From Bolinopsis microptera (lineage: Eukaryota > Ctenophora > Tentaculata > Lobata > Bolinopsidae): a stretch of DNA of 64,000 nucleotides. The stretch spans positions 9,434,901 through 9,498,900 of the forward strand of contig NC_087082.1 in assembly GCF_026151205.1 (NCBI RefSeq), read 5' to 3'. Positions within the stretch are counted from its first letter, which is position 1. The number at the start of each line of letters is the position of its first letter. Below are positions 16,491 through 46,123 of the stretch, piece by piece. The position numbers were made by a program, and so were the translations under genes. A model generated the notes under the pieces. That model was given only the letters and a program-made list of their open reading frames with translations. It did not search any database and was not told the DNA's origin.

Positions 16491-19400
16491 CTACTCCACG
16501 ATGTCGTTGTTATGACCGTTACACTTGTTATCTTGATCAGCCTCTTCTGGACTATAATCTGATTCCGGCTCAATACTCGACCAGTCACTGTATCCATCGT
16601 CACTTGTGGAGCTTTGATCCTCATATGCGTCTATCCACCTGCAAATTCTGTCTGGTAATTTGGCGACGAAATATGTGTAACAATACATTTTAAAGTCAGG
16701 GCTGTTAGCTGTACCATAAAAATACGAAGACTATACTGTTACCACTGGTAATACCAGTATAATTTAAACTTACTGAGCCGGTAGTATTAATTCTGAAATT
16801 TACCTCTGAATTTCAGCACGCTTATCCGGATCTGTCTGCAAATCAAGCTGGGCCACCAAGAACTTAACATCCACCATAATCAGGCTCTGAGAATGAAAAT
16901 TCGTTTATATTAAGCTCAGCAATCGAAGTAATAAATGTATAGCTTTTTTTAAAAATCTCCAGAAAGCGATTATAGATTTTATCTAAGAATATTGCTTAGA
17001 ATCCTTGCCAGATACTGACAGTTCCAATTGTATCCATAGAGGTAGATTTTATCGAAAGTATGTTGTCAGACTAGGTTAGAATATTCTAAACTAACGTTCA
17101 GGGCTTCATCATCCCTCCGTCCATGACCTCTTGTCTTGAGCGGTTTCTTGTACTTCTTCCCGAATGCCAGTCTGTTCATCAGCTCGAACACTTTCCTGTG
17201 ACTGGTCTTGGTTCGAGAGGATATGCTCATTATGGTGGCAGACAGGATGGACATGCCAAGGTAGAGAGCTAGCGCCCACAGTGCTAGAATCATCTGAAAT
17301 TAAATTATAATGTTAGTGGCCATTTAAATCTTTACTTTTATCGATTATGGGGTTTCCTAGAAGTTTTTATAAGATTTGAGGTCACATTTGCTACTCCATG
17401 TACAAAAAAACAATGATTTCCCGTGTCCCAATTTAGCATATCTAGCAATGAAGTATGGTAAATCGCAGTACTGTTAAAGATTGAATGAGGCAACCTCATC
17501 CATTTCACCCAAATTTTAGGAACAGTGTCCGTGTCAAACTGTGCCGTGAATGTGGGTTTTTTCAGTTCGCCTTTTTATTCTTAGTTTCCATTGCGAGAAC
17601 AGATCTTTATTCGTTTCGTGACTAGGCATCTTGTAAAATCTCACTTAATTGCGACCAGGCCATTTTGAACTGATATCTTCCTTTTTATGGCTGTTACTGC
17701 AGTCTCCTTCGCCACAGTGAACCATTACTTTCAAGAGATGGCATTAGATCGAGAAGACAAAAAATAAACATATTGAGATGTGGTATAATATGAAATATCA
17801 TCAATGAATATTAGAATTACAGTGATAGTTGATACTAGCAAGCTGGATTCAACTTTTTAAAATTTCAAGCAGAATTTGAAGGTTAGAAGTGCCTGAGAAT
17901 AGCTGTCAATTTATTCAGCTGCAAATCTAAATCTTAAGCTTAAGTAACACGTAAGCAGTTTCCCGGTATATAGTAGCAGAATGGGAATATTTAATATATA
18001 TTTTAATATATCTAACATATATTTTATATTTCGTGTTCCAACCTAATTATAGTTAGCAGGCTATATGTGTAGTAAAATTCCGTTGTGGACCATTACACAC
18101 TGTAAGGAAGATAAATGAACTCATAATACAACAATCAAAGTTTCCCGCATTCAAAAGGTGCAGGTGTTACTCATTTAATAATCAATTAATAATCAATTAA
18201 TAATCAATTAATAATTAGTCAATTAATAATCAATTAATAATTAGTCAATTAATAGTCAATTAAATACTCACAACTCGGTTATAGTCACTTTGTTCCTCGA
18301 ACCTGATGACAAAGTCCCCAAACCCGATAGTACTAATGGTAACGTAGATAAAGTAGATAGCCTGTATGTAGGTTACATCCCCCATGATGAGGCGCACTGA
18401 CCTGAAAAATATAATACTATAATGGGTACTGGTAGTGTTGGTTTCAATAATCTGATCTCGACTGTAATAAACTGATAAAGTTCTGAACATTTTAAATACT
18501 CTTCCTAGCATCACCTGTGACTAATGACCACAAGTTGCCAACAGCAGCTCCGAAATGGATTAATATGACAGATTCAGGATGTCATCGGACGGACCAAAGG
18601 TTATAACGATTGAAACTTGATTAAGTTACATACGGATTTTAATGGCAATAACCACCACATTTACATCACTTACAATGTAATTGATGTAATTGATGTAAAT
18701 AACATACCCAGCACTGAAAATAACGAAGAACAAAAGCAGGGAGAGGGTTACAATGAATGTAGCACTATCTTTCTTCCCTTGACCCTTGTTGATGTACTTC
18801 CCCGCTGAGAAGTTTAAGAACCTGGAACACAACTAGTGAGATGAATTTCATATTTCAAATTTCAAAGTCTTATCTGAGAGTCTGAGTTCAACTCAACTAA
18901 TCAACTTTTTAAGTTGACCGGAAAATCGGATTAGAATAAAAGTGGATAAGTAAGTGGATAACTTTAAGCGAGCAGTTCAACAGTGGTAATTATCTAATTA
19001 CAACAGTGGTAATTATCTAATAATTATAATTACAAACCTTGATATGACGCAATTGAGGTGTTTACCAATACAACCTAGCGTGACCATGTGCAGTGGTATT
19101 CCCCCTAAACTGAAGAATATACAGAACAACTGTCCCCCTCCTGTCATAGGACTGTGATGCCCGTAACCTGCAGGATAATAAATTGGTTATTTACCACTTT
19201 GTAATAACGATACTCAAGTACAATTACGTTAAAGTAACTTAATGACACGGTTAAAATGCTAGACTCGCCTGACAGTGATCATGGAGGGGGATGTTTAAAA
19301 CATATTATAAGTGATTAAGGAGCTTCCTTAGCAAAATACATGTGTAAATCGTCTTCAGCTTAACCTGACTGTTAGTTAGTATTGACACTTGTATAGTAAT

Positions 19401-20320
19401 ATAAGTTAACTTACGTGTTAACTTTGAATAAAACTTCTACTTTTAGTATACAATGTTTCCGGACTAATGAGCAATAATGACATATAAGTTTGAAGTTTCT
19501 AAGTTTCTATATAAGTTTCTAAGTTCTTAAGTTCTTAAATTTCTAAGTTACTAAGTTTCTAAGTTTCTAAGTTTCTATATAAGTTTCTATATAAGTTTCT
19601 AAGTTTCAAAGTTTATCAAGAAAGGAGAACTAACCAATAGTTGTGGTAGAAGTAATGCTGAAGTACAAGGTAGAGATAAAATCCCAGGAATGTCTTGCTG
19701 TTGCAGGTAGCTCATCATCGTGAAAACTAAAACCTTTACTGAAAGCAATTTTAAGTACGTTTTCCTGCTCTGCTGTCAGGGACATTTCTTTTCTCACCTC
19801 CTTCAACTGATCTGAAGAATAAAATGCAAATGATGCATAATTGTCACGGGCAAAATATAATTGTCGCGACTCAGGCAAAAGAAGCGCTGTTAAAAGTACA
19901 AAAACATATCAAGATGAGAACCTGAACCAGCTGTGAAGCAGTGTGCACCCTGTGCAAATATCCAAACTTTACAAACTACACTTTTAACAACAGACTCAGA
20001 AAAGGATGGAACTGCAGAAAAGCTACATAAATTAAGCACTGTCCGTAATTCATGTATAAATGTGGATGAAAAGTCGTCTTACCAAGAGCGATCCTATATC
20101 CCTTCTGAGTGGAGTCCCTCTCCAGAAACATGAACATACCACTTCCCAACATCAGGTAAATGAACTGAGCCACGATAAGACACACCATTTGACATACTGA
20201 CTTCTTCACCTGTCTCTCCTTCTCCATCGGCAACATGATGGCGTGTGATCCCTCCTGGGAGCCTTCAGATGTGAAGATGGGGGTTTTACTTGAAGTGGAT
20301 GAAAAGGTTGGAGGCTGCAT
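16491..20320 (-). CDS. two-pore-domain potassium channel (K2P)
   Basis: Eight exons join to 405 residues: 20083-20320, 19635-19811, 19038-19167, 18708-18821, 18272-18401, 17096-17293, 16804-16886, 16491-16638. Order: cytosolic N-terminus, TM1 (about 45-66), extracellular cap region, pore 1 (TTTIGYG, 134-140), TM2, TM3, pore 2 (STIGFGD, GFG at 246-248), TM4 (from 264) and an acidic Ser-rich C-terminus. Two pores and four helices are the K2P plan; such dimers carry background K+ current at the plasma membrane. GYG then GFG are the usual K2P filters. Start: the first ATG in frame; the frame is open to about 20350 but without an earlier ATG. The gene converges on the homeobox gene. Subfamily (TASK, TREK, TWIK) is not resolved. 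Confidence 0.92.
17294..18271 (-). other. intron 5 of the K2P gene
   Basis: It separates the pore-2 exon from the TM4 exon. Apart from the AT-rich tandem repeat next to the donor I see no gene or known repeat in it. Confidence 0.6.
18174..18264. repeat. AATCAATTAAT tandem repeat in K2P intron
   Basis: About eight copies of an 8-11 bp AT-rich unit (AATCAATTAAT / TAGTCAATTAAT) lie within 10 bp of the splice donor of the pore-2 exon. Confidence 0.75.
19485..19612. repeat. AAGTTTCT tandem repeat in K2P intron
   Basis: An irregular minisatellite of AAGTTTCT and AAGTTTCTATAT units starts about 22 bp from the donor of the pore-1 exon. Its minus-strand sense is A/G-rich. Confidence 0.75.
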
Positions 20321-28260: not shown

Positions 28261-31200
28261 ATGCCTCCACTCTGGAGGCTAGCTCTTCTCCTATGCTCCG
28301 CCTCAGCTACCATAGCAGCTGCTGACTTGGAAGATATCAAGAAGCGTGAAACGAACCAAGGTGAGAACTGAGAAGAAGAGATTAACTACAGGAATAACTT
28401 CAGTAGCCATTTCGAGTTGAGTTTTAGTCAAAATTATCAATTTTCTGCAGAAATTGTGATGAATCTCTCCGAGGCTGAAGCTATAAATATATTTACAGCA
28501 TGATTGTTTAAATTATGGAATGAATCAATAAAAGTAAAAGTGCCATTATACGCTAACTGGTAAGAGTAAGGGCACAATGCACATAGGTAATACATATTAA
28601 GGTATTTAAAAGAAGGACACACAATTGAAGACTCGTAAACCGTTATCAAAGAACTATTTCAGGAGAAAATATGTTGATCACCATTGTAAGTGCAGAAATG
28701 AAGAACCAGTTCGGAACATACCCTTCCTCAAATCTTATAGACGGAGATCTGGACAGTTTCGCTCACACATCAGAAGCTGAAGACGGTATGTGGATGCGCG
28801 TTAATCTGGAGAAGCAGTATTCTGTTACTAAAGTGATCATCTACAACAGAGTACACAGTTGCTGTCAAGACAGGATAGTTGGAGCTTCAGTCTTCATAAA
28901 GACAGGAGATGAGCATGTTACTGATTGTGGTACGATTAGCAGAACAGAAAGTTCCTACACTTTTAACTGTGAAGGAGACGGAAATGTGATTGAGTTGAGT
29001 CAGGAAGGAACGGTAGGAGTATGGAACATTGCTGAGATTCAAGTCTACGGCACACCTTCAGGTTTGGATTTATAGATAATATTTTTCAGGGAGGGGAGGA
29101 AGGATCCTTTTTTTACCCCGACAATCTTTTAAGCCATCAAGTTACGTAGGAGCAACACATGGTCGCTTGTTGGACCAAATTTTGAGACCTAAAGTTCTTA
29201 TTCTTTGGCCAGTTTTTTATATCTTCATACTGCTAAAAAGGTCATAAATGACCCAGCCAAAAAAGTTCCAATTGCATATCTGTCACGGTTTAATGACTAA
29301 AATTCGTGTTAAAGTTGATGCCGTGTTGTCAGTAAAATGGCAACAGATATAATATCTATAATCTATATCGTCTCGCTTTATATATAGTAAGATATTCACA
29401 CATGTCTTTCTGACAGTTAATGAGGAGATCGGCTTCACTGTTGAACTTGAAAGACAGACAGTCAGATCAGAGTGTAAAATACGGCTATCATTTGCAAAAA
29501 TATATTTAGTTTTACAACAAAACATCACTTTACCCTAAACAATAAACATCCTAGAAGTGACCTGCACCAGACCCGCAGTCTCAGATGCCACAATTACTCC
29601 CGCAGCTGAGACTATTGGCGATGGCGAGGTTTACACGATAAAATGTGATGAGGAATTGATCGATATAACTGATGCTGATGGTGCTAGTTCACGCAAAGCA
29701 ACATGTGATGCTGGTAAACTGTCCAAGTTGCCAATCTGTGCAGGTAATCGAAAAAATTGTTCACCTTTGTTTGTAGTAGATTTGGCCTAACGAACAGCAA
29801 GTTCCGCGATTAATTCGTGAAAATGTACACTACATTACCTCATGAAAATGTTGCTAAAAAGTTGCCGAAAAATAATACCCTTGTTTGACGATTACCTATT
29901 TTTAAGGGCTCACTAACCCATCTGTATTCTGTTAAAACTTTACTAACGTTACCAACCACCAAGCTTGCAACGTTCCCTCTAATATGGGAGTGTACACTGT
30001 AACCAATGTAACCACTCCTGGTACCTTTCTCTTGGATGGTGACTCAGTTACTGTGTCTTGTGAACACAACCTGGTTAACTTCGGCAGTGACCTTCTTACT
30101 TGTGCAACGGGTGATAAATTCCAATTTGACTTTCAACCTGAGTGCCTAAGTGAGTTTTTGCCAACCCTGATAAATGCAAAAGTTCATTGAATTCGGATGT
30201 ATTTATGTCGTAGTCATTTTTCGGCTGATTCAGTGTACTGATTGCTTCTCATTATTACAAATTTATTCTCTCCAGGTAAAGTCCCAATAACAGAAACTAA
30301 AACTTCATCTGGTGTTTCTGTACCCGCTGTAAACGATGACAGCAATTTGGAGAACATTCAATGGGTCAGGTCTAATGAACAGGAGGTCTGGATTGAAGTG
30401 TTCTTCGACTCGATCAATGCTATAAGCATCGTCAAAGTGTTCAATAAAGACGGCTGCATGGCTTCGGATTCATACGATTTAAAAATATCTGCGAAAAGAG
30501 ATGATCAGTACATCCTGGATTGCGGGAACGTTTGGTTCTGGAACGTTGGTAGTCGTTCCAGAACCAAACGATATGACTGTGCTCTTCAATTCCGATGTGG
30601 GTCGTGGTTTGAAGCAACCTCGATCAAAATAACAGATGCCAATCCAACATATGACGGAGAGAATGTCGTGATGAAAATAACAGAAGTCATTATTGGTCGA
30701 GCAGCCAGTATGTCTGTAGGTATGAAGTGTATTTGTTAACCCATACCTCCATGCTATAAGTATAGCAGTTATAAACATATTTTCTGATTTTAGCAGCTTT
30801 TTTTTCGTGTTACGTATTCATGATTTATGTTTTTTGTTGGTCTGCAGTCTTCGTAACAAGAACTTCTCCAGGTATAACCACAGAACCTACAGTTTTAAAA
30901 GAAACAGATAACAATGACGTGTCCATAATATGCACGGTGAAGTACGACCCTCTTTACTTTTTTGAAGGATTTACTTTGAGGGTTCAGCATTTTTACAAAG
31001 ACGTGGCGGGGGTGCAACCAAAACAGATATCGTCGAAGGATCTTAAGGATGGCTGTTCCTACTCTGAAGAGGAATTGGTGTATACTATTCCAGTGGCGAA
31101 TAAAGGGCACAATGGCCCTTATCGTTGTAAAGCTACAAAATGGAAGAGCATAACTCTAACACTTGCATTTGTTATCAAAGTAGCCCCAGTCATTCCTTCC

Positions 31201-34200
31201 ATAAAAACTTATCGATGTAGGGAAGTCATTTTTACTTGTAAAATCCATGGTGATAAACCGCGTGCAATAAAATGGTTCAAGGATCAATCTGAAATATCTG
31301 CTGTAGCACCGTATGAAATATATGTTACGAGTGCCGACTCCTACTCTGTTCATAGTTACTCAGCTAGCTCACTGGGTTTGGTCTGGAATGGGACCTTAGT
31401 GGTAGGGTATTCCACCTTGGTAATCACTCCGGAGGGAACAAAGACTGCTAAAGAAGTGCAGTATCGGTGTGAGGTCTACTGGGACTTGAATGGAAATGAT
31501 GTTTTGATCAGCACACATTTTAATCTCCTGGTTCACGGTGAGCTTTAAAATTTGACTTCTTGCTACGTGTTGGTTCATTGATATCATTCGTCAAGGTTCA
31601 CCTGGAAATTCATCCCTGCTTATGGTGTAGATTTATTCTAATATCATTATTCATTCTAAACGATCTAAATTATGAATTATCAGACGTTTATGTGGGTTTG
31701 GAAGAACGTGAGGTGATGACAGGAACCACAACAACACTCTCTTGTGTTGTAGACGCTCCCCCAGAGACAACCACTCCGTTTGATATCACATGGACTGGTG
31801 GCGATGTAACCTGGGACTCTAAAAATCCCACTACAATATCCGACTACTCTATATCTGCCGGAGTACTCGTAGACCAGGGAGTTGATGATAACTCAGCAGC
31901 ACCCCGGAGAAGGAGACAGGTAACCACACTTGAGGTCCTATCAGCAGCTGTTGTTCACGATCTTCAATACACCTGTACTGTGGACTCTACTACGTTTAAC
32001 CTGGAGAATGCTGACGACAAATATTATCTTAATTTGGGAGTATATGGTTAGTAATCAGGATACACGTATTTATACAGTTACCATGAATAGGATGAATAGA
32101 ATGGGGATATGTGCCAACTTGGAGTTCTAGTAAAGATTAGTTCAGCATAATGAGGTAATGAGCGATTAAGTATAGCCCCAGGTACGACCTTTATAAAAGC
32201 TCGTGAAACAGCACTCGTACGGCGTACAGTCAATCATCCCTACATAACAATAAATAAATAGAAATGTTAACACCTAGATTCTCCTCCATTTCAGATGTCA
32301 CCCCTGTTAGTAAAAACGTTTACCGAGGGGACTTCTCTTCGGAGACAATATCTTGCGTAGTAACGAACATGGTGTCTACAGAACATACCATTCTTTGGCA
32401 ACCTGATGATACGATGTCTGGTGAGGACATTACCTGGATTTCACCATCCGTCACATCAGAGTTAACCTTGAAGAAGGACCTAGTAACAGATGACCACGTG
32501 TATAGGTGTGAAGTTCAGGCTACCACTAAGTCAGAGCCTGCTTCCATCGAAGTTCATCTCAATTTCTACTGTAAGTATGAGATTTTGTTTGTTCACCCGA
32601 CGCGACAGTTACTGAGCTCTTCCAAATGTACGATATCACTAAGGTTAACGAAAGTATGTAGCTTCGTAAGGCTTCTTGAATATTTCACTAAAATTTGATA
32701 CCTGACCAATAAGTTATTGGTCAGGTATCAAATAATATTGGCAATAACCTTGTGAATTTATTTCAGCAATCGAAATTAGTCAGTCTGTAGAAATCCGAAC
32801 ACTGAGCGAGGCTGTCACCTTAACTTGTAAGGTAACAGAAATAAGTCATGACATGTCGATCGCCTGGTTATTCACACCAAATTACATGAGTGAGTTAATG
32901 TTTCATCAAGAGTTTGATGTGGAATCAAGTTTGAAGTTCAGTGAGCTGAATGTGGTTAGGGAGGCGACAGAGCAAGATAGGGCCTACACCTGTAGGGTGT
33001 CCTCTACTCAGCAAACCTTTACTACTTCAACAGCTCGGGAATTTACTGTGGACCTCAATGTTTATGGTAAGTAAGGTGATGGAGTGTATGATAACATGAT
33101 CAGAGGTTTTCGTACGTCGAAGAATTGCCGTATGAAAATGTTTTGGAGAGTAAATTGTTTAAACTGATAGTTAGATATTAAGCGAATGCTAACTAGAACT
33201 TTCTGTCAGACGTAAATGTTATCAACAAAGACATCCAAAAAGACAGTATTGGTGAACAAATAATGATCACTTGCGAAGTATCAGGGATATCAGTTGATCC
33301 AGAGATAATTTGGTCAAACACAGATCAAAATGGAGCGGTTCAAGATAGTGATGCCGGAACTTTCGTTAACAATAGGAAAACATCCGTTTTGACTGTAACT
33401 TTGAATTCGGCAGAGGACACACAATTCTTTTGTAAGATTGAAAGCGATGAAACAAAGAAGTTGACTGGGACACAAGAAACTGCAGCCATATTTGTTTATG
33501 GTAAGAATTTTAACAGGATAGTATTCATTGCAATAAAACATTGTCTTCACCAATTTCTCCTGTGTATCTTCAAAATTATCATTATCCCAAATTCTCAGAC
33601 GTTGAACCGAAGAGTACAGAAGTGATAAAGAACACGGAAGCAAAGATATCATGCACAATAACTGACATTTCCGCGGCTATGAAAATAACATGGTCGGAGC
33701 TTATAACATCGGGTGACACGACCCCCATCTCCGTCTCAGATACATTTTATCCGAAAAATGAAAACCAGATCAGCATAATCACAGTGACATCAGAAGTAGC
33801 AACCTCTGACAAGGTGTTCACTTGTACGGTTTCTTCCCTGCAGAACCCAACATCTGACCAAACAAACTTTCAAGTTGAACTGAAGGTGTATGGTGAGTTA
33901 TATTTGACGATACGCTTGATTTTGATAGACAAAAGAGTGGATTATTTAATTTTATTAAGTTAACAAATTAACGTATTCACAAACGAATATTATGGAGCGT
34001 TTCATAATCTTCTAGAACCTGCACAATTATTGCTGTCCTTAATATAGTTTTGTCTTCTTCAGATGTTGCTGTAAACGGACGGGAAGTCTCCAAAGGAACA
34101 ACTACGACATTAACCTGCGTTGTATCCAACCTGTCTCAGATAAAACTGATACAATGGCACGACGAAGCTGATAAAATACAAGCCTCTGTTCATGTTGATG

Positions 34201-37200
34201 AAGATATTACTGCTGGGGGATCTCAACGTTCAACACTAACAATCCCCAATCCAACTGAGTCTAAAGTGTTCACGTGTCGAGTATTTTCTACTCTCTACCC
34301 TGACAGTCCTCCCTCTGATACACCTGTTCAACTTTACGTTTACGGTAATTACCTTAAATTTAAAAAATTCACGAACATTTTTGTCGTGACATTGAGTGTT
34401 TCTACTTCATTTCTCCATTGAATTCGCAAAAATTGATGACGCGAAAATGATCCAGTTTTAGAAATCCACCAAAATGAATGCCCGCTAAAATATCTGGTTT
34501 AACAGTATGTTATAACTGCAGATAAAATTGTTTTACCTTTTGTAGTGCATACCAAGACCAATCAACTAAAAATTTTACAGAGGTAGCTGGACCTAGCATA
34601 GAAGTAAAAACAGGAGTAACCGTTACTCTCATCCTCACCATCTCCAATGTACGGGAAATTGGCGTTACTGTCACGTGGAAAGATAGCTCAGGCAATGTAT
34701 TGGACGTGGGAACGGAATCTGAATACTCCGAAGAGGTTCAAGTATCCACACTGAGTCTACAAAACGTTCAGTTAGAGTCCGTCTACACTTGTGCAGTGAA
34801 TTCAAAGGAATTTGCGGAATCGGAGTCGGCAGATCATGTTATCACATTGAAGACTTATGGTGATTCATTTCATTGCTTTATAGCCTTTAAACCCACTTTT
34901 TATTGCAAATGGTCGAATAAGAGTTCGTTATGGAGACATTGCATTGTGAGCACGCGTCCCTTATAATGATGCTATTAACTAATTAACTTATTAACACTGA
35001 AATCAACATTCGTTCTTATCAGACGTGATACCTTCACCGGACCACCTAGTGAAGACTGGAACAGAGGTAACTTTATCTTGTGAGATATCAGACCTTGATG
35101 AAGCAGTCAGTGTTGAATGGTTGAAAGATACAACAGTCATTTCACACGGAGGAGACTACACTGTGTCACTAAGCAATCTGGAGTCTGGTAAACAAACAGC
35201 GACTTTGCTAATAGGAGGGGCAGCAGTAAAACAGGACTCTGATTACACTTGTAGAGTAAAGTCAATACAGTATGACTCGTCACCCTACTCGGACACACAA
35301 ATCAGATTGGAAGTGTATGGTGAGTTTTAACCAAACTAACCACAGTTATGATTCGGATAGTTACTTTTGTGGATGGTTAAAATTATGCGTGACTAAGATT
35401 ACATACTTTTTTAGTTAGTAAGACATAATAATTAATACTTTAACTGATAACAACTCTTGATATTGGCTTTTGAGTGGTGCAATGTGTTACCTGTGCATTT
35501 TTCAGAGGTGGAGATGACCTCACAAGCTGTTATAGTCGGCGGTGCAGCAACCATAACATGTGCAGTAACTGGACTAGGATCCAATACTGCCGAAATCTCT
35601 TGGCTTCCAGATGCTAGCGGACCTGTTTCAACTGGAGATCTTGATACGAACATTAGTTCCCGAACATCAACGCTTACAATAGCTAAAGTGACTCAAGAGA
35701 CATACAATATAAATTTCATTTGTGTGGTCAAATCGGACTCAGAGAAGTACTCAAACTCTCCTGCGTCAAATACTGAGAAACATGTCAATTCTTTCAGTAA
35801 GTATTCAATAATCAATACAGGTCGAGGCTATGTCTGCTGATTTCCTAAACAGTTTCAAGCGTATCTCCATTTTATCAATCGTCACACATAAGTTAGAACA
35901 TTGTTGTATTTTATATTCATTAACAATTTCTAGGTGTAGAAGTGAGCCACAGAGAGGTGAAGAAGAACACGGAAACGGAGATATCGTGCACCATAACAGA
36001 AATTGGAGCTGCTATGGAGATTACTTGGACAGGCTATACAAATAAGAACTACTTTAACTTATCGCCAGCAGTGGCAATTGGCCGTGATTCTGAGTCGCAG
36101 ACCAGTACTCTTATTGTCGGATCGGAAGCAGTAGTTGCCGATGCTACTTATACTTGCACAGTATCTTCTGTGGTAGAAGGGAACCTATTTGAAACCAAGA
36201 ACTTTGACGTTCAACTATTTGTCTACGGTAAGAGGAAAACATGTACTCTGCATTCGATACTTAAATATTAGTTAAATACTTGTACAAGTACGAATAAGTT
36301 TATTTGTACAATAAAAATATTTACAATATTTACAAATTTTGAACTTCATTAACGCTTAATTAAAATTGCAACAACAACTCACATCCCCCTCTAGATGTGA
36401 ACGTTCACGACAGAGAAGTAGCTAAGGGGACCACAACTACACTAACCTGCATCGCGTCTGAGTTAACTCAGGAAATGGAGATCAAGTGGATCCTCGAAGA
36501 TGTAGAATTGGTGTCGAGTAATGAATACACAGTAACTGAAGTGAACAATAATGGCTTATATGAATCACAAGAATCAAAATTAACTATTCTCAACCCAACT
36601 AAATCAGAAGACTTTACCTGCCGAGTATCCTCGACTCTTTATCCGGAGAGTCCTAGTTCTGAAACCGTTGTCCATCTCTACGTTTTCGGTAAGCTATCAC
36701 ATATTTACTCTTATTTACTCTAATTAACTCCAATATCACGATCTATATGTATTCTTTTGATCTCGTATCGTATTAGTTAACCTGTTAACCAAGCCACTCA
36801 CAGATATAGCAGTAACAGGAGTAGAAGTTAAACAAGGAGAGGCTGCCTCACTTACCTGTACCGTGACTAACTTTCTTACAAGGTGTGTAACCGTCGAATG
36901 GAAATATAAGCAAGTGACAGTTATTGAACCTACTGATTACAATGAAGTTTCTGTACTGAGTTTGAAAGACGTTCAATCAGATTCTGTGTACACTTGTGTG
37001 GTAAAATCTAAAGAATTTCCTGAATCAGAGGCGACTGAGGAGACTGTAAACTTGAAAACATACGGTAATTTAGTTATTTATAGTTTATCAAATTGTTATT
37101 TCCGTCTCAGCCCTTACAATTCTACGTTCCCCCTTTTAAAATCTCTTCTCTAATTATAATATCAGTTATCAATCATCCTCAGTCGTTACACCAAAACACC

Positions 37201-40200
37201 GCCAAGTAAAGATGGGAACAGAGATAACATTATTTTGTGAGATATCAGACCTTGATAAAGCAGTCAGTGTTGAATGGTTGAAAGATACAACAGTAATTTC
37301 ACACGGAGGAGACTACACTGTGTCACAAGGCAGTCTGGAGTCCGGTAAACAGATCGCAACTCTAATGATAAACACGGTTACAGCAGACACAGTTTTCACT
37401 TTTAGAGTCCAGTCAATTCAGTATGATAACTCTCCAAGCTCCGACACGGAAGTCACACTGCGGGTTTACGGTAAGTGCTTTTAGTTATACCAAATTATAT
37501 ATCGAAGATTCAAAAGCCTATTACTAAAAAATGAGAAGCGTCAAAAAAGCTGTTTTCAAAAAATAGTAATGAAGATAATTTTCTATCTAGTTCCTGATTA
37601 CTAGCCTATTGAATTGTATACTGGGCGATCTTTGAGTTTGTGGTCATTGCTACTAACAATCTGTAGTTTGTATAATTTCCAGGAGTAGAAAATCTCCAAA
37701 AGGCTGTTCTTGTCGGCGATCCAGCATATTTGACCTGCAAACTAGTCGGACTATCATCCAATGACGTGGAAATATCGTGGTTACCCAGCAATAGTGGAAC
37801 GTCAACTCCTGGAAATCTTGATACCACGACTGGGGTCAAAATATCAACCCTCACTATAAGTAATCCTCAAACAGATAACACTTACACCTGTTTGGTCAAG
37901 TCAGAGCTTTACCCGGACTCTCCTCCATCGGAGACTGAGCAACGCCTGGATACTTTCGGTAAGTAGTCAAGTATGGATCACCACCCCCGCGCTTAAAGAG
38001 TTCTAACGTTTAACACGAACTCAAGTAATACTTTTTGTTTGCTACACGTTCATTTGGCGGAAATTTCCAGCTCTTATAGAAATTTATTATAGATCGTACT
38101 CATGATGATTAATTTATTTGATCTAATTTTATATTCTCATCACTCAATTTTCAGGTGTTAAAGTGACTAACAAAGAAGTAAAGAGTGACACAGAGACAAG
38201 TATGTCATGCACAATAACAGATATTAAAACTGATATGAGGATCACCTGGTCGGGGTATCTCGATACTGATATTATAAACTACAGTACCAATATTGACGAT
38301 TCAGTCAGTGGTTCCCGAAGCAATGTTCTGACAATAAAGTCAGGAGCAGTCAGCACTGATAGGAAGTTCACATGTACTGTTCAATCGGTTCAGAGCTTGG
38401 TATCAGAGATCAAAACCTTTGACGTTCAACTTCTTGTTTATAGTGAGTGCAGAATGCATAGCTTGTATCGATTTTAAAAGTGATCTTAAGCTCAGGATGA
38501 TAACAAAGAGATGCTATGACCTGTATTATATATATTATATATATATGAATATCTAAATTAGGTACAGGTACGAAATAACGTTTTAGTATAATAACCATCT
38601 TACACAGGTGTTCATATCCAGAACGGAATTGCAGCTAGTGCAAGTACTTTTACTCTGACCTGCATTATTTCCGACCTAACTCAAGAAGTAACAATAGAGT
38701 GGCGTCTGGGTGACAATAAGTTGGAGACTGAGGGGAACTACTTAGTTGATGTTGTAGATAGTATCCACACAGACAGATCACAGATATCGCACTTGACCAT
38801 CCTTCAAACAACTCAATCAGAAGTTTTTACCTGCCAAGTAGCTTCGACACTTTATTTGGAGAGTCCAGTCTCTGAAACCTTAGTCTATCTAGACGTTTAC
38901 GGTGAGATTTAACGCAACCAATAAGTGATTTCGTGTTCATCCTTATAAGTCTCAGTACATCAAGACATGAAATAAGAAGTATATCATTTTAAACAATCTA
39001 TCAAAGTCAAATCACAACTTAAAACTTTCAAAATCCACTCTTTTTGCAGATGTAGAAGTTCAAGACAGAGAAGTAGTTACAGGAACCACAACTACGCTAA
39101 CCTGCATTGTTTCTAGCTTAATAAAACGAGCTAAATCTGTATCTGTCGTGTGGCTTCTAGGGAGTGAGGAGTTGAATTCGAATATCGTTAATGTCTTCAA
39201 CACTGATGGATCGCAAATAACATCAAAATTGACCATCCCCAATCCGACTAAATCGGAAACTTTCACCTGCAAAGTATCTTTAGATAGTCCCATCTCATCA
39301 ACCCCAGTCCATTTATACGTCTACGGTAAATTTTATAATTTATTGTTCCGATCCCAATATGCTTTTTTATGTTCAACTTTTGATCTTTCTGGAAATCTAA
39401 GTTCAAATCGTTTTCTAACCAAGCCTTTTTTCAGGTATAACTGAAGGAACAGGAGTGGAAGTTAAACAAGGAGATACAGTCTCACTAACATGCGCAGTTT
39501 CAAACATCCGACAAACTGGTGTGACCATGCAATGGATTGATAGCTCTGGTTCGGTTACGGAAACTGTTGATTCCAGTACTGGAGCTCAAATTTCTGTATT
39601 AAGTTTGGAGGACGTGCAATCAGATTCTTTTTACACTTGCGTGGTAAAATCTAAGGAATTCCCTGATTCGGAGTCGACTGAGGAGACTTTCATTCTAAAA
39701 ACATATGGTAAAAATTCATACCAAAATTTCATACAAGTTTTGTCATAATTTATGTTTCAGACGATGATGCCAGAATTAAAATCACCAATATTCTCCCTTT
39801 AATTGTAACTTAATTTCTCATACCAGTTTATATCACCAGCCGTGAAGCCCAAAGATCAAGAAGTAGAACCTGGGAGTGACGTGACGTTATCTTGTGAGAT
39901 AACCGATCTGGATAGCACAGTTAATGTTGCGTGGGTGAATGAAGCAGGTGACATTGTTACAGATGGAGAACAGTACACAGTGACACACTCTCAGGAATAT
40001 AATTGGGATCACGTGACTACTCTTGCGTTAGAGGGCAGTACTGTTACAGAGGATTTGTCGTTCACATGCAGGGTGAAGTCAGTTGAGTTCAGTAACTCTC
40101 CAAGCTCTGACACTGTTGTAAAACTGGTAGTCAATGGTAAGTTTTATTTTGATGTTTTGTTATGTAGCTTTCATGTTTAAGTTCAGTACACATTTAATAA

Positions 40201-43200
40201 ACAATCTGCTGAGTACATCAAGTCACTGGCTGATTTCAAGTCACTAGCCCTCTTTATGTATAAAATATTTTAAAATCAAAGGTTTTTAATTCCCCTTTAA
40301 TTAATTGAACTAACAAATCAGGCGTCTGCATGAAAGAGGTATCACTGACATTGGGGAAATTTGGGAAGGGACCTTGGGTGTTCAATGAGACGAGAGGAAG
40401 ACAAGAGTTCTCCATCGCTTGTACTGATGGGTATGTTAGGAGGGCGTGTTTACGAACAGGACAGTGGGATGATATAGAATCTTCTAGCTGTACTTTACTC
40501 GTGGACAAGATCAACAGGGAGATTGATAGTTTAGTAAGTAGAAATAAACTTTTCACTTGTACAATTAATATTTATCGTTAATTGGGATATCCAGGGGGAT
40601 TTAAAATAATCATACCCTGATCATATCGAGTCACCTTGTATAACTATAAGCAATGTGATATCTGCATTTAATAATTCCTTCAGGGTGAAGAGGCCACTTT
40701 TGAGCAAGTTGAAAGTGTTGTGAATAACTTGTCTGGGATGGATGAATATGTCAAAGATAATCCCCACAAAGCTGGTCAAGTTATCAACTCCTTGTCAAAA
40801 CTCAACAGCAAATTCCGTGTTGTTAAAACTCCCAATGCTGTGGATTTAGTAAGTCGTCCAATTTAAATAGAACGACTCTTCAATGAACTGATATGTCGTT
40901 TCAACTGACTCAATCATTTTAAAAATATCATTTGAACATTTCATGTTTCATAAGAACTTTCCAATTTCCCGCAGTTTACAATAATATGTTAGGGGTCGTT
41001 CACATATTACGTAATCAGCTGAGGGGGGGGGGGGGGGTTCCAAATGATTACGCTAGTGTAATTTTGACACAATAGCTATGTGTAAAACTGATTACGGAGG
41101 GGGGGGGGGGGGGGGGGTAAAAATGTTCCAAAAAATGATGACGTAATATGTGAACGACCCCTTACAACCAAGAGTCGACCGAGGGCAGGATTTGCGACCG
41201 AGGCCGAGGAAATTTTGCTTTGATAAAACCGAGGCCGAGGAAAAATCGCTATTCCTCAGTGAAACCGAGGCCGAGGACTCGGTCGACCCTTAAAATCTTC
41301 AAAATTTCGCCGAGGCCGAGGAATAGCAGCTTAATTTTTAAACGAGGCCGAGGCAAACCGAGGAATTGTCCTCCTGACCGAGGCCGAGGACAAGGCCGAG
41401 GAAAAATCGCTATTCCTCGGTAAAACCGAGGCCGAGGCCGAGGCCGAGGACTCAGTCGACCCTTGGTTACAACTCATGACATACAACGGTTTAAATATTT
41501 TCATCAGTGTATATTTTGAATTCCAAATTTTCATATATTTTCAGAAAAAGGCGGTGCTTGGATCAGTATCCTCTGTTCAAAACGTTAATAAACAAAGTAA
41601 TATACTGAAAGATGAAGATAAACAGCAAATTATTCCCATGATCGAGGCCCTCGCTCAGTCAGTCGGTAAGAATATGGTTTTAATACAATAGTACAATCCC
41701 ACACTTTGCAACATCAACCCTGTTTTAGTAACACAAGCGCTAAACCTGTGCACTGCACAGGTTTAGCGCTTGTGTTACTCAGCAAATTTCACACTGCACA
41801 GTGTGCAGTGTGAAATTTGCTGAGTAAAAACCAACGCTTAATAAAATGTTTATTCTTGACTCAACCTACAATGAAACTATAACACAAATATGTTACAGTT
41901 TTAATTTTTAACTTTGATATGCATGGTATTTAGATTTAAACTCTTCAGATAGCACAGAAGGCACTCTAGTAAATGAGCAAATTACTGTAAAATCGGTCAG
42001 CAAAAGTAACGAACCCATCACACTTGAGAAGCCTAGCGAAATGAAAGGATCGGCAGTAATGGTGGGTTTCACTTACTCGGCTTGCAAATATATTGTCGCT
42101 AATTGCTCCATTACGTTTTAGGGCGCTAGATAAATCAAACATGAGAGGATTTATTTGTGAAAAGTACCCAAAAACCTTTTCTAGGGTTGTATAATGTATA
42201 ACATATTAACAAATCATGAGAGAGATGGAACGATTGAGTAAATTACTATAACACACAAGTACTTTTACCGTTTCAGTTCGATTTCGGAAGAAACCGAGCC
42301 ACAAGAGCAACAGTAGCAGTTATGGCTGAAGATTTTATGGGTATCTTACCTCAACCATTAAGTAACGGAACTATGGAGTCTCCAGTAATATCTGTGAATG
42401 TAAGAGATTTTTACGATTAATTACAGACAAATACATGCTATTAAATAACCTTAAATAAAGTAACTTAGAGTCGCACGATAGAGTTGTGTTTAAAAAATAT
42501 TACAATGTAGTCAAGATCTGAATTCAAGAGCGTATTTTTAAGTGGCTAATAATAAAAATCTTATCAGTTTATGGAACAAGAAGGAGAAGGTTCCGCAGAA
42601 TTCACTATTCATTTTCCGAAGGAAGCGAACAAGTCTAGTTTCGTGTAAGTCGTGTTATCGTCAACGGTAATTTGTTCAACCAAAATACAAATTTGCTTCC
42701 TCCTTTCGAGAGAAAAGTCTACTGACCCTTGTCCCACACTATATTATCATAAACCTACTCCCCTTAACATGACTTTGTGGCCAACAGAAAGGGAATAGAG
42801 AAGAACTACACTTGCGTATACCTGGACACTGTCACCTCTGAATGGAAGGGGGACGGGTGCGTGATATCTTACAAACCTGACGGTGGTCACACCTGCTCTT
42901 GTAACCACACAACTAGCTTTGCAGTTCTGCTGGTCGGTGGTTTTATGATGTAGCATTTTCAGTTCTTGTGAATAATTTCACGGTTTTATTTGCACAGATG
43001 GTACTAATACTACTATATAATAGAATATAAAGACTAAGGGTCAATTATTCATTCTACACGTCCTATAGCATATATAAGTAATGTTGGAAATTTTAAAGTT
43101 GGAACTTAAATATTTTCAGAGTTTGACAGATGTAACAGATCCATATCAAGATCTCGTGTCCTATATCATGTTGGGAGTAAACATGTTCTTTCTTCTCATT

Positions 43201-46123
43201 ACATTTTTGCTTGTTGCTCCATTCAGGTATTTCCACTATTTGTTAAATCGTTTTATAATTACTCTATATAAGAGGAAATTCTTGGCTCACAATTTTGTAA
43301 AAGATACTTGAAAGTTGTCCCAACATCACTAATATCAATGACCATTAACGGGCATAATAAATTATTATTCACGATAGAGAGCTGAGGAGGAAACAGTTGG
43401 CGATATGCCAAGTGAACCTCATTTTATCTCTACTCCTTGCTAATGCTGGGTTTACTGTTCTCTCTTCTTTAGCAGTAGTTACTGTGGACCACAGAGGCGT
43501 GAGTACAAAACACTCATACAGTTTACTTTTCAACATGAACTTTTAAACAGTTATTTGCATCATAAAACCGGTCATCCTACAAATCCAAAAGCAAACTTTC
43601 GACCAGTACAGGTTATTAAAATTAAAATTAATATAAACCATGGTTCTACCTTTCTACACTATCTACTACAAATATTGAAATGAAGATGTTTTCTATTTCA
43701 GATGCCGATGTTGAGCCTGAACACTGGTTGTGTGACAGGAGCAATCATTGTACAGTATCTCTTCTTATGTTCCTTTAGCTGGATGGCTTGTACTGCTTAC
43801 ACTCTACACTCCAAGGTACTGGTCTTTGGTTGGGTGTTTAAACATCGTTTACAGTTCACACAAAGGGGATAATTGTGGATAAGGAGTAACATTAGCATAA
43901 CCATTTCAAAACTGCCGGCCCGTCCCATAACCTAGTTGAAGTTGTACAGTAAAACCAGGTACAACTTGTACCTGGTTTTACTGTACTACAAGTTACCAGC
44001 TCCTGGATTACCCTACCTGAATCAAAATAGGGATCGGTATTTGAGCCAAACAATTCCCAGTGAACCATAATGTTCACATATTCACATTTCACTCTTGCAG
44101 ATTGTGGATGCACTGAAGAGTTTTGGTAGATCAGACCCATATTACATGTTGAAATGTGCGCTGATCAGCTGGGTATCCCCAGGTCTGTTGCCACTGACTG
44201 CTTTCACCGTGTCCTACGCTACCAACTACAGGAGGGATCAGTACGACTCATCTTATGTCGGTGGGTGTGTTTTAATTTGTGAGAGGGTGTTCTTTAAAAA
44301 TCATAATTGATGAATACTGGTTCAAACAGTATTCAATTCGTTTGCTAATAGAAAACATCTTCATACTGGCGAAAAATGATTTATGTAAAATGACATGAGA
44401 CGGGCGGTATCTCACTAGGTCTACATTGCAGGGAAGCCTGGCGCGGAGACAGGGAGTGTCTGCTGGGTGGAGAACCCCTGGAGACTGTACACCTTCATGT
44501 TACCCTGCTACCTGATCTTGATGGTTGATGCGGGCTGTTTCGTCATGATAGCTAGGGTTGTTATCAAATCCGCCAAAGCTGGGAGTAATCCATCCAACCT
44601 AGAGGTGAGTAGTTAAGAGTTGAAGCAAATTAAAATTAAACACTACCGTGACTCAAGACAGTATTCAGGGTTAAACATTTCACTGTATCGCAAAGTATCG
44701 CACAGATTTGCACAGAATTACACAGTTTGCACAGTATAATCCACAGTATAATCCACGACCACAGTATAAGTATAACACATGAATCATTCAAATCTTCAGA
44801 AAGCGGCTAAAGCATTGTTTGCAGTGGGAGCGTCTGTGGGACTCCCCTGGGTGTTTGCTGCCCTGACAATTATAAAGCCTCTTGCTAACGTGTTCCAGTA
44901 CATCTTCATCATCCTGGCTGGACTTCAGGTCAATATTTTAGGCATGCTTAAATATGGGCGAGTCCAAATTCCTTAGACAAATTTGAACTATATTTGCTTT
45001 GACCAAACAAGTTGAGGTAGCGTAATACTTGATAGATCGCTTCTTTGTTCATCATGTGAGACATATTATACCATTACCGCTATGCGATCTTTTGTTTTTA
45101 TGGAAGTTTCAAATACACCTATTATCCGGTTATATATATATTAATCGGAACTCTTCATAACTCTTTTTAATTGATTTCGCTAAAATAAGCATTGTTATAG
45201 GGACCACTGCTGTTTGTAAGCTTGGTAATTCTTCAAGATGATATCAAGATTCACACGTTAAAGCTATTCGGATTTACACTACCGAAAAAAGGAGATCGAC
45301 CAACAACCTCTGCAGCCGGTCCACAAACTGCCACTACAACTATTCAACCATCAGTTGGGCCATCGGGTAGCCGAACAGTCACTACCAAGGTTAATTCATA
45401 ATTATCATGACAATATTTATGAGAAAAATTAGGCTTTTCCAAACATATTATTGCTAGTGCTAATTAATCGATTATTTTAGTAATTGTGTGTGACCTTTGT
45501 ATATAATAATCACTTATATAATCAATTCATACTTCAGGAAATCCCTGAATTTAAATTTGTGGCACCACAAGAATCAGCTGAGCTTATGACCAAACCACCG
45601 TAAGATAATGATATTAGTTCATTTTTAAACTGTGTCCCACATATAACCAAATTACAAAAGATCTAATCGATTTGTTTTTCAAATTGAAATTCCACCTCTT
45701 GTCGTAATGTAATACGTACAAAGTATTAACTTTGTTACTTGTTGCAGAGCATGGGGAGTATTAAAGTAAAACCATCGCATCTTCCGTATCGACTTATAAA
45801 AATAAATACCATCTTCATTCTTCAACAGAAACAGCGAAAACGTGATATCAAGAAGTAACCCTGAATTAGTTATGAAGGAAGATGAGAACGAGCCAAGAAT
45901 CATTTTGCTACCTGGCCCATGCAGCGAGGAAAAGTACTCAAACCATTATGAGAAGTATGACTTGGCGATTCAGCCTAACACTAACAGCAGCAACTATCCA
46001 CTGAACTATGAAAACGAGGAAGAGAACATCGTGATACCTATTGTGAAGATTCCAATACGGTCCAAGGGCAAGGAGATAAAGATGCACGGTTTCGATAATA
46101 AAAAAATCAACTACACCTGCTGA
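28261..46123 (+). CDS. giant Ig-rich adhesion G-protein-coupled receptor
   Basis: Forty-one exons (first 28261-28360, last 45829-46123) join to 9816 nt, 3271 residues. Order: signal peptide (1-22); fucolectin-type lectin (about 35-165; FAHTSE, NRVHSCCQDRIVGASVFI); two CCPs (167-291); a second galactose-binding-like domain (292-435); 21 Ig domains (436-2503, two in exon 30848-31537, then one per exon to 40136); HRM (exon 40322-40533); GAIN with GPS (CSCNHTTSFAVLL, end of exon 42788-42932; cleavage expected at H|T); seven helices in 43120 to about 45240 (Cys in TM3, CW in ECL2, GLPWVFAALT in TM6, FQYIFIILAGLQ in TM7); tail of ~165 residues. Adhesion GPCRs self-cleave at the GPS and signal when the tethered peptide (TSFAVLL) is exposed. 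The ectodomain suits a carbohydrate- or cell-surface recognition receptor, but the ligand is unknown. Exons 2-25 are all multiples of three in phase 1. The donor of the exon from 30276 is ambiguous (30707 or 30719). Confidence 0.93.
30529..30570. repeat. hairpin within a coding exon
   Basis: CGTTTGGTTCTGGAACG and CGTTCCAGAACCAAACG are perfect 17-bp arms around TTGGTAGT, inside the GPCR exon for the second lectin-like domain. The frame is kept, encoding FWNVGSRSRTKR. Confidence 0.85.
32693..32733. repeat. 41-bp perfect palindrome in GPCR intron
   Basis: ATTTGATACCTGACCAATAA, a central G, then the exact complement. It sits between the Ig exons ending 32570 and starting 32767. Confidence 0.85.
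33599..40136 (+). repeat. tandem five-exon Ig cassette
   Basis: Exon starts fall into types A-E by sequence. A: 33599, 35934, 38155 (CTIT.I...ITW). B: 34063, 36395, 38608, 39050 (GTTTTLTC). C: 34581, 36804, 39435 (KSKEF ... LKTYG). D: 35023, 37183, 39840 (CEISDLD). E: 35506, 37683 (EISWLP). The order is A-B-C-D-E, A-B-C-D-E, A-B-B-C-D, with a period of about 2.2 kb. Confidence 0.88.
40992..41161. mobile_element. MITE, GGGGTCGTTCAC family, in GPCR intron
   Basis: Perfect family ends, TTA at 40989-40991 and 41162-41164, and two internal poly-G runs. Intron between exons ending 40848 and starting 41545. Confidence 0.85.
41169..41466. mobile_element. CCGAGGCCGAGG-rich TIR element
   Basis: Ends CAAGAGTCGACCGAG and CTCAGTCGACCCTTG are inverted. 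TTACAAC flanks both sides (41162-41168, 41467-41473), and the 8-bp flanks match at 7 of 8, fitting hAT. The interior is GAGGCCGAGGA repeats and their complement. It lies back to back with the preceding MITE and shares its TTA. Confidence 0.7.
41727..41827. repeat. two overlapping 53-bp perfect palindromes
   Basis: 41727-41779 and 41775-41827 each have 26-bp perfect arms around one base. Arm sequences are unrelated (AACACAAGCGCTAAACCTGT versus CAGCAAATTTCACACTGCAC). They lie in the GPCR intron after the exon ending 41665. Confidence 0.88.
43944..43986. repeat. 43-bp perfect palindrome in GPCR intron
   Basis: GTACAGTAAAACCAGGTACA(A), a central C, then the exact complement; 21-bp arms, in the intron before the TM4 exon (44101). 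Confidence 0.85.

Follow-up and report, generated by a model that had tools for sequence, protein, structure and literature searches.

Some protein domain repeats have grown by blocks, among them the super-repeats of titin and the A-B immunoglobulin (Ig) pairs of CEACAM5. In nebulin the blocks comprise seven domains, and here we describe an array of Ig exons in which several domains have probably likewise been copied together in fixed order. The array is found in an adhesion G protein-coupled receptor (GPCR) gene of the ctenophore Bolinopsis microptera, in a stretch of 64,000 nucleotides that we call the window (C11:9434901-9498900 of the 264.65 Mb assembly, where C11 is contig NC_087082.1). 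The assembly gives 18 innexin matches, as fits a ctenophore; no zf-C4 match came up, in a search whose controls were silent too, and a search for COX1 had no mitochondrial match. Bjorklund et al. 2006 (PMC1553488) report that duplication of single domains is most frequent in the IG and EGF families. The window array differs from this pattern, the unit here being five Ig exons whose types are present in several genes.

Adhesion GPCRs (class B2) such as ADGRG6 and ADGRG2 have a GPS motif and a 7tm_2 domain. The window gene likewise has both, and it differs from these receptors in carrying 19 single-Ig exons and two more Ig domains. Adhesion GPCRs of sponges have been listed with Ig domains (PMC4302439), and those of amphioxus with I-set and discoidin domains (PMC2246102). 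The available parts of these two accounts make no mention of a block-duplicated Ig array. The window array is also not mentioned in the accessible parts of the literature on ctenophore immunoglobulins, ctenophore allorecognition and ctenophore adhesion GPCRs, where an earlier description is possible.

Organisation of the Ig exon array

A sequence-only reading of the window had claimed 19 single-Ig exons, with five types (A to E) repeating in fixed order as cassettes. We set the exon limits by AG/GT boundaries and likewise delimited 19 exons, at 31684-40136 on the plus strand, four of them upstream of the cassettes (31684-33500). The cassette part consists of the last 15 (33599-40136), and the claimed cassette starts (33599, 35934 and 38155) and end (40136) match ours to the base. 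All 19 exons have a length divisible by three and symmetric phase 1-1, and the introns between them are 98-248 bases long. The first round comprises A1 (33599..33892), B1 (34063..34344), C1 (34581..34859), D1 (35023..35319) and E1 (35506..35796), and the second A2 (35934..36227), B2 (36395..36688), C2 (36804..37064), D2 (37183..37470) and E2 (37683..37958). The third comprises A3 (38155..38442), B3a, which is an extra B (38608..38901), B3b (39050..39325), C3 (39435..39707) and D3 (39840..40136), so that the order is ABCDE / ABCDE / ABBCD. These assignments rest on exon boundaries, the tree and pairwise scores. By translation, L stands in place of the first canonical Ig cysteine in C1 and F in place of the second in D2. 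The D1 exon passes the Pfam I-set cut-off; its structure model (32 alignment rows) has a pLDDT of 90.4, and the nearest Foldseek matches of this model include cardiac MyBP-C C1, titin, Dscam and DIP domains.

The types and their order are confirmed. In an all-against-all comparison the top partner belongs to the same type for 15 of the 15 exons. In the DNA tree of the 19 exons a single branch separates each type from all the rest (support A 97/94, B 94/91, C 98/99, D 96/98, E 95/99); the corresponding values in the protein tree are A 58/35, B 92/92, C 91/95, D 79/91 and E 94/96. Six type labels require five changes on the 19-exon tree, which is the minimum and was reached by 0 of 200 shuffles. 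Clustering by neighbourhood, which would have spoken against block copying, was looked for in the tree of 19 exons and is absent; the exons cluster by type. The mean pair score along the 15 exons is 83, 83, 87 and 81 at distances of one to four exons and 169 at distance five. Random exon orders equalled the distance-5 score in 2 of 20,000 cases (1 of 20,000 for 19 exons, 0 of 20,000 without the extra B), and no similarity above background was found between adjacent exons among the 15. The array combines a similarity peak at the block length with types repeating in fixed order, as is found in a block-duplicated array. In a pruned genome-wide tree (see below) the copies from the window stand together as a separate clade inside every type (A 99/85, B 99/94, C 100/96, D 100/99, E 100/99), which argues that the three rounds arose inside the window gene and were not imported three times.

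The explanation that we favour, and consider probable, is that the 15 membrane-proximal Ig exons of this adhesion GPCR come from in-situ tandem duplication of a five-exon block, whose types are older than the array and are shared with a second gene family. An ancestral five-exon block would have been duplicated in tandem, and one single-exon copy of B would have been added. The claim that whole five-domain blocks and not single domains were copied is supported in this form: five exons at a time, plus one B. As all exons are of symmetric phase 1-1, blocks of any size can be added without breaking the frame, and recombination between introns may have added them. The types are placed before the array because they also occur in the second gene family, in which sub-blocks (E-A pairs or single D exons) would have grown recently at other loci.

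The cassette duplications are old, because the proteins are diverged, synonymous divergence (dS) is high or saturated, the introns are unalignable and exact direct repeats in 31684-40136 reach 37 bp at most. Proteins of the same type are 39-70% identical, and Nei-Gojobori dS ranges from 0.62 (D1/D2) upward and is undefined through saturation in 4 of the 16 within-type pairs. Corresponding introns (11 pairs) show no extra likeness over shuffled sequence (z -2.1 to 2.0). The highest intron z, 6.2, fell in a non-corresponding pair, for which reason intron similarity was dropped as a marker of block ends. The array matches itself best over 154 bp, at 91%. B exons from the second and third rounds form a group apart from B1 in the DNA tree (100/98), and C2 and C3 are sisters at 98/53 in the genome-wide tree with eight long-branch rows dropped. 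The D subtree differs from the round order, as D1 groups with D2.

The same exon types at other loci

What is new here is that types A, C and D, and less certainly B and E, recur in other genes of the genome. A genome search with A2-E2 gave at least 129 matches (90 of 744 candidates scored). We took 32 genomic pieces, and 21 of the first 23 were scanned for Ig exons (L004 and L007 excluded), giving 144 matches; 104 of them pass the thresholds of E<1e-12 and 78 residues. A separate scan covered L007 and L029-L032, and L024-L028 were read as open frames only. In the strings below, full-length exons are written 5' to 3' with labels from a pruned tree (see below), and a dot stands for an exon that is partial or weak.

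L011 (C13:1126000-1133500) reads ...DEABCDEA. Its duplicate L010 reads BCDEA, and by eye D, E and A precede in L025. The whole cyclic order D-E-A-B-C-D-E-A is kept at this one duplicated locus, and at the remaining loci it is retained in part or types are left out. L012 reads ..EAEAEAEA, L002 EAEAEA.EAD, L001 B.EAD (the dot scores as C), L018 DDDDDDEA and L019 EA. L009 has fifteen D exons followed by E, L016 reads ADDDD, L017 AD, L020 ADD and L005 BC, and L006, L008 and L013-L015 have D only. Adjacent full-length pairs of unlike type outside the window are cyclic in 25 cases (EA 14, DE 5, BC 3, CD 2, AB 1) and not cyclic in 10 (AD 5, AE 5); these counts include recent repeats and duplicate loci as they come, and the AE pairs lie inside E-A repeats.

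E-A pairs or single D exons have multiplied recently at these other loci. The E-A units measure 0.88 kb on contig C2 (94-98% identical) and 0.93 kb at L012 (97-98%), and single-D units recur every 0.4-0.47 kb at L006, L009 and L018 (about 92-96% identical). The mean ratio of nonsynonymous to synonymous divergence (dN/dS) of exon copies at young loci is 0.24-0.55 (6 sets), and there is no sign of diversifying selection in these 6 sets. At L008 (C13:995000-1004999) the single-D array flips to its own reverse complement near 7.9-8.0 kb, with copies forward to 7661 and mirrored from 7955; this is either a palindrome or an assembly fold-back.

A second family of Ig-array genes is found at C2:18.53-18.55, C13:1.10-1.14, C11:20.80-20.81 and C3:21.13-21.14 Mb. 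The family is marked by four short 3' peptides that recur among the pieces from contigs C2, C3, C11 and C13, not all four in each, and none of the four was found in the window at E 1e-3. Not every D array is demonstrated as a member. The family has the same types A-E as the window gene, and differs from it in its own 3' peptides, in having no listed GPS match and in its E-A or single-D units. No GPCR part was found in its genes, with no GPS match among the 38 listed. When the lists were compared by eye, only the window's own GPS match among these 38 lay within 100 kb of an Ig match, among the matches listed. One intron-free relative of the window receptor that was read (L004:2071-4356) has GPS and 7tm_2 matches, an HRM match below the cut-off and no Ig match at E 0.01. 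The window gene is therefore the sole GPS-bearing gene found with these exon types.

At C11:17.33-17.38 and C11:20.77 Mb, D-like exons have weaker GPCR matches at a distance of 20-36 kb. We considered a second Ig-array adhesion GPCR at the latter site and rejected it, since the 36 kb upstream shows no link: L029-L031 are without an Ig match, the array of L032 ends in the 3' Ig exons of the second family, and by eye other-looking open reading frames lie between. At C11:17.33-17.38 Mb the seven-transmembrane (7TM) and weak GPS-region matches are on the minus strand and the Ig exons, at a distance of 20-27 kb, on the plus strand. Long intron-free frames with several Ig domains (874-1319 amino acids) occur at C3:21005645, 21043284, 21138800 and 21150998, and one of these matches has an internal TAA. 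The one of these frames that was read (L005:3-3149) contains a kringle, five TSP1 and several Ig domains, with one Pfam match to the Ig domain of ADGRF3-like receptors.

Firmness of the types across loci

The genome-wide tree contains 45 representatives after removal of near-copies, 64 rows in total, with 97 informative columns. In the pruned tree eight long-branch rows are left out (L005_1325, L021_1870, L022_2009, L022_2309 and the four upstream window exons, p1-p4), and the type clades have support of A 99/94, B 98/85, C 98/89 and E 95/80. With profiles made from the other loci, every window exon of type A (3 of 3), C (3 of 3), D (3 of 3) and E (2 of 2) is assigned correctly.

Several observations weigh against shared types and a block repeated in order. 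With the same profiles none of the four B exons of the window is assigned to B, D scoring best for three of them and E for one. Under profiles from the window, B outscores E for the exons in E position at L010, L011, L018 and L019 and for most of those at L012. The window E exons stand apart from the other E exons in the 64-row tree, where B joins at 81/71. Clean type clades appear only after the eight rows are dropped, the groups were drawn after the first tree had been seen, and the trees rest on no more than 97 informative columns. Type D fails to form a single clade (2 changes in the pruned tree). The approximately unbiased (AU) test leaves unrejected the unions of window E with other-locus B (p 0.113), of window B with other-locus E (p 0.184) and of window B with all D (p 0.29). 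Within the window the A subtree is inconsistent, with A2 and A3 together in the 19-exon tree and A1 and A3 together in the pruned genome-wide tree. The full cyclic order outside the window occurs at one locus and its duplicate only, which amounts to one event; L001 reads B, C (partial), E, A, D, and in L002, L016, L017 and L020 D comes right after A, skipping types. Finally, the splicing of all exons into one mRNA is predicted from genomic sequence.

Given the profile assignments, the window-profile scores and the AU tests, we regard the sharing of types A, C and D across genes as firm on sequence comparison, and that of B and E as less certain, resting on moderate tree support and position.

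The four exons before the first cassette appear to belong to none of the five types with confidence, and their best partners in the all-against-all comparison are A2, A1, A1 and E1. The first, p1 (31684..32046, by exon boundaries and tree), is possibly A-like; in the 64-row tree it groups, on a long branch, with the A-like exons L016_2236/L020_2689 (95/90). The others are without firm type: p2 (32295..32570), p3 (32767..33066), whose top score is with A, and p4 (33210..33500), whose top score is with E, 3.3 bits above B. Under the other-locus profiles the best types of p1-p4 are D (with A 0.6 bits behind), E, A and E, with small margins, and these scores hint at older E-A pairs before the first cassette.

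Alternative explanations

The phase of the repeated unit is not fixed, as E-A-B-C-D fits equally to A-B-C-D-E. The third round had been said to have an extra B and to lack E. The extra B is present as B3a, whereas a loss of E is needed only if the unit is A-B-C-D-E, and becomes unnecessary if the unit is E-A-B-C-D and the first E was lost or p4 is its remnant. E stands right before A at L001, L002, L010, L011, L012, L018 and L019, the p4 profile score is 39.3 bits for E and 36.0 for B, and pairwise p4 is marginally best with E1 (73, against 72 for B2 and A3). These margins are small, and p4 sits on a very long branch and is unplaced in the trees, so that we hold the E-A-B-C-D unit to be a serious possibility at somewhat below even confidence. 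The cassettes might also be splicing alternatives, one or two rounds being used at a time; in Dscam-like receptors exon copies are spliced mutually exclusively. Each of the 19 exons is frame-neutral when skipped, as such a choice would require, yet the introns are short and no mark of mutually exclusive choice was noticed in the sequence, no specific search for one having been made. We consider exon choice improbable here.

The similarity within types could instead come from gene conversion among positions. One clear tract is present in D1/D2, where a 120-nt stretch is 94% identical and the remainder 65%; because identity steps abruptly within the exon, local conversion may later have re-homogenised part of D1 and D2. 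Of the other 15 within-type pairs C2/C3 has the next-highest 120-nt stretch, a weaker tract (83%, with 64% in the rest). As a source of the types themselves, conversion would be expected to affect neighbours too, yet adjacent exons are at background similarity, and in the remaining 14 within-type pairs no 120-nt window exceeds 74%; it is a very improbable substitute for block duplication. A receptor for self or microbes whose cassette number differs among individuals is suggested by the position of a tandem Ig array on a signalling receptor and by the arrays of related exons at other loci, which are young and highly similar. In Alr-like allorecognition receptors, high allelic polymorphism controls fusion. 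The expectation of the sequence-only reading that the window array varies in length between individuals is nevertheless poorly supported, because the short exact repeats and unalignable introns of this locus, with a dS of 0.6 to saturated, offer little substrate for unequal crossing-over. The other loci, with units of 0.4-0.93 kb that are about 92-98% identical, would fit better as such a substrate, and the mean dN/dS of these recent copies speaks against a length-variable receptor as well. We think such a receptor unlikely. In-situ duplication of a five-exon block remains the explanation that we prefer.

The receptor gene around the array

All features of the gene lie on the plus strand. The N-terminal part includes an F5/8 type C (discoidin-like) domain in an open frame at 28629..29075 (PF22633 E 2.4e-14, PF00754 9.6e-9), followed by two sushi-like cysteine-containing open frames at 29539..30190, the first without a convincing match and the second with a weak Sushi match (E 0.06) below the cut-off. 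A second F5/8-C-like open frame is present at 30242..30739 (PF22633 E 0.01, below the cut-off). The 'lectin' part that had been proposed for the receptor thus consists of F5/8-type-C-like domains, one above the cut-off and one below. Two Ig domains share one exon at 30872..31537 (Ig_3 E 2.4e-8 in two stretches, boundaries by eye), and together with the single-Ig exons they bring the total to about 21 Ig domains in a long multi-domain N-terminal region.

An HRM-like exon lies 3' of the array at 40322..40533 (HRM E 0.077, below the cut-off, boundaries by eye). The exons at about 40684..42645 are assigned to a GAIN domain from their location alone, and when joined they gave no match to a GAIN model in Pfam at E 0.01. 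The GPS autoproteolysis motif is in an open frame at 42768..42950 (PF01825 E 3.7e-10), directly before the 7TM part as in adhesion GPCRs. The 7TM exons, of class B2, are at 43120..45272 (7tm_2 E 7.6e-21 with exons joined, boundaries by eye). All 21 PDB sequences matched by the 7TM part are adhesion GPCRs or fusions thereof; the best chain is ADGRG6 (E 2.8e-18), and ADGRG2 is also among the best. The GPCR of the earlier reading is, by its GPS, 7tm_2 and ADGRG6-like 7TM part, an adhesion GPCR of class B2.

With its long I-set-like Ig stalk of about 21 domains the receptor might hold out the N-terminal discoidin/sushi-like region towards a ligand on a neighbouring cell or in the matrix, and the stalk might relay binding or pull to the GPS-7TM part. 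To read the array as a stalk for adhesion or mechanosensing would be more cautious than to read it as serving recognition.

The closest 7TM relatives among the matches found are five dispersed adhesion-GPCR open frames of 626-875 amino acids, 51% identical in GPS-7TM, at C5:19229602, C8:7524224, C4:3129870, C4:5374400 and C8:10088413. Their GPS and 7TM parts are without introns, and they may be a retrocopied family. Hairpin-like inverted repeats (arms 24-27 nt, loop 1 nt) occur between the receptor exons at 41727-41779, 41775-41827, 43941-43989 and 32686-32740, the first two being perfect and adjacent. On the minus strand at 18260-19908 the window contains open frames with potassium-channel-like selectivity motifs, by eye probably a two-pore channel gene.

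Implications

Ig exons, reported to duplicate mostly singly, would here have been multiplied in ordered blocks of five, and several genes have these exon types in common while different sub-blocks grow. A wider picture can be drawn of a cassette-based repertoire of Ig receptors, in which an ancient A-B-C-D-E set is spread over several genes, one of them GPCR-coupled, sub-blocks expand differently, and young arrays vary in copy number among individuals and serve cell-cell or microbe recognition; we regard this picture as unlikely. The old, diverged GPCR array is set apart from the young arrays, where variation should be sought. The young arrays on contigs C2, C4, C11 and C13 offer concrete loci for asking about variable Ig receptors in ctenophores, which have been proposed as the sister group of all other animals.

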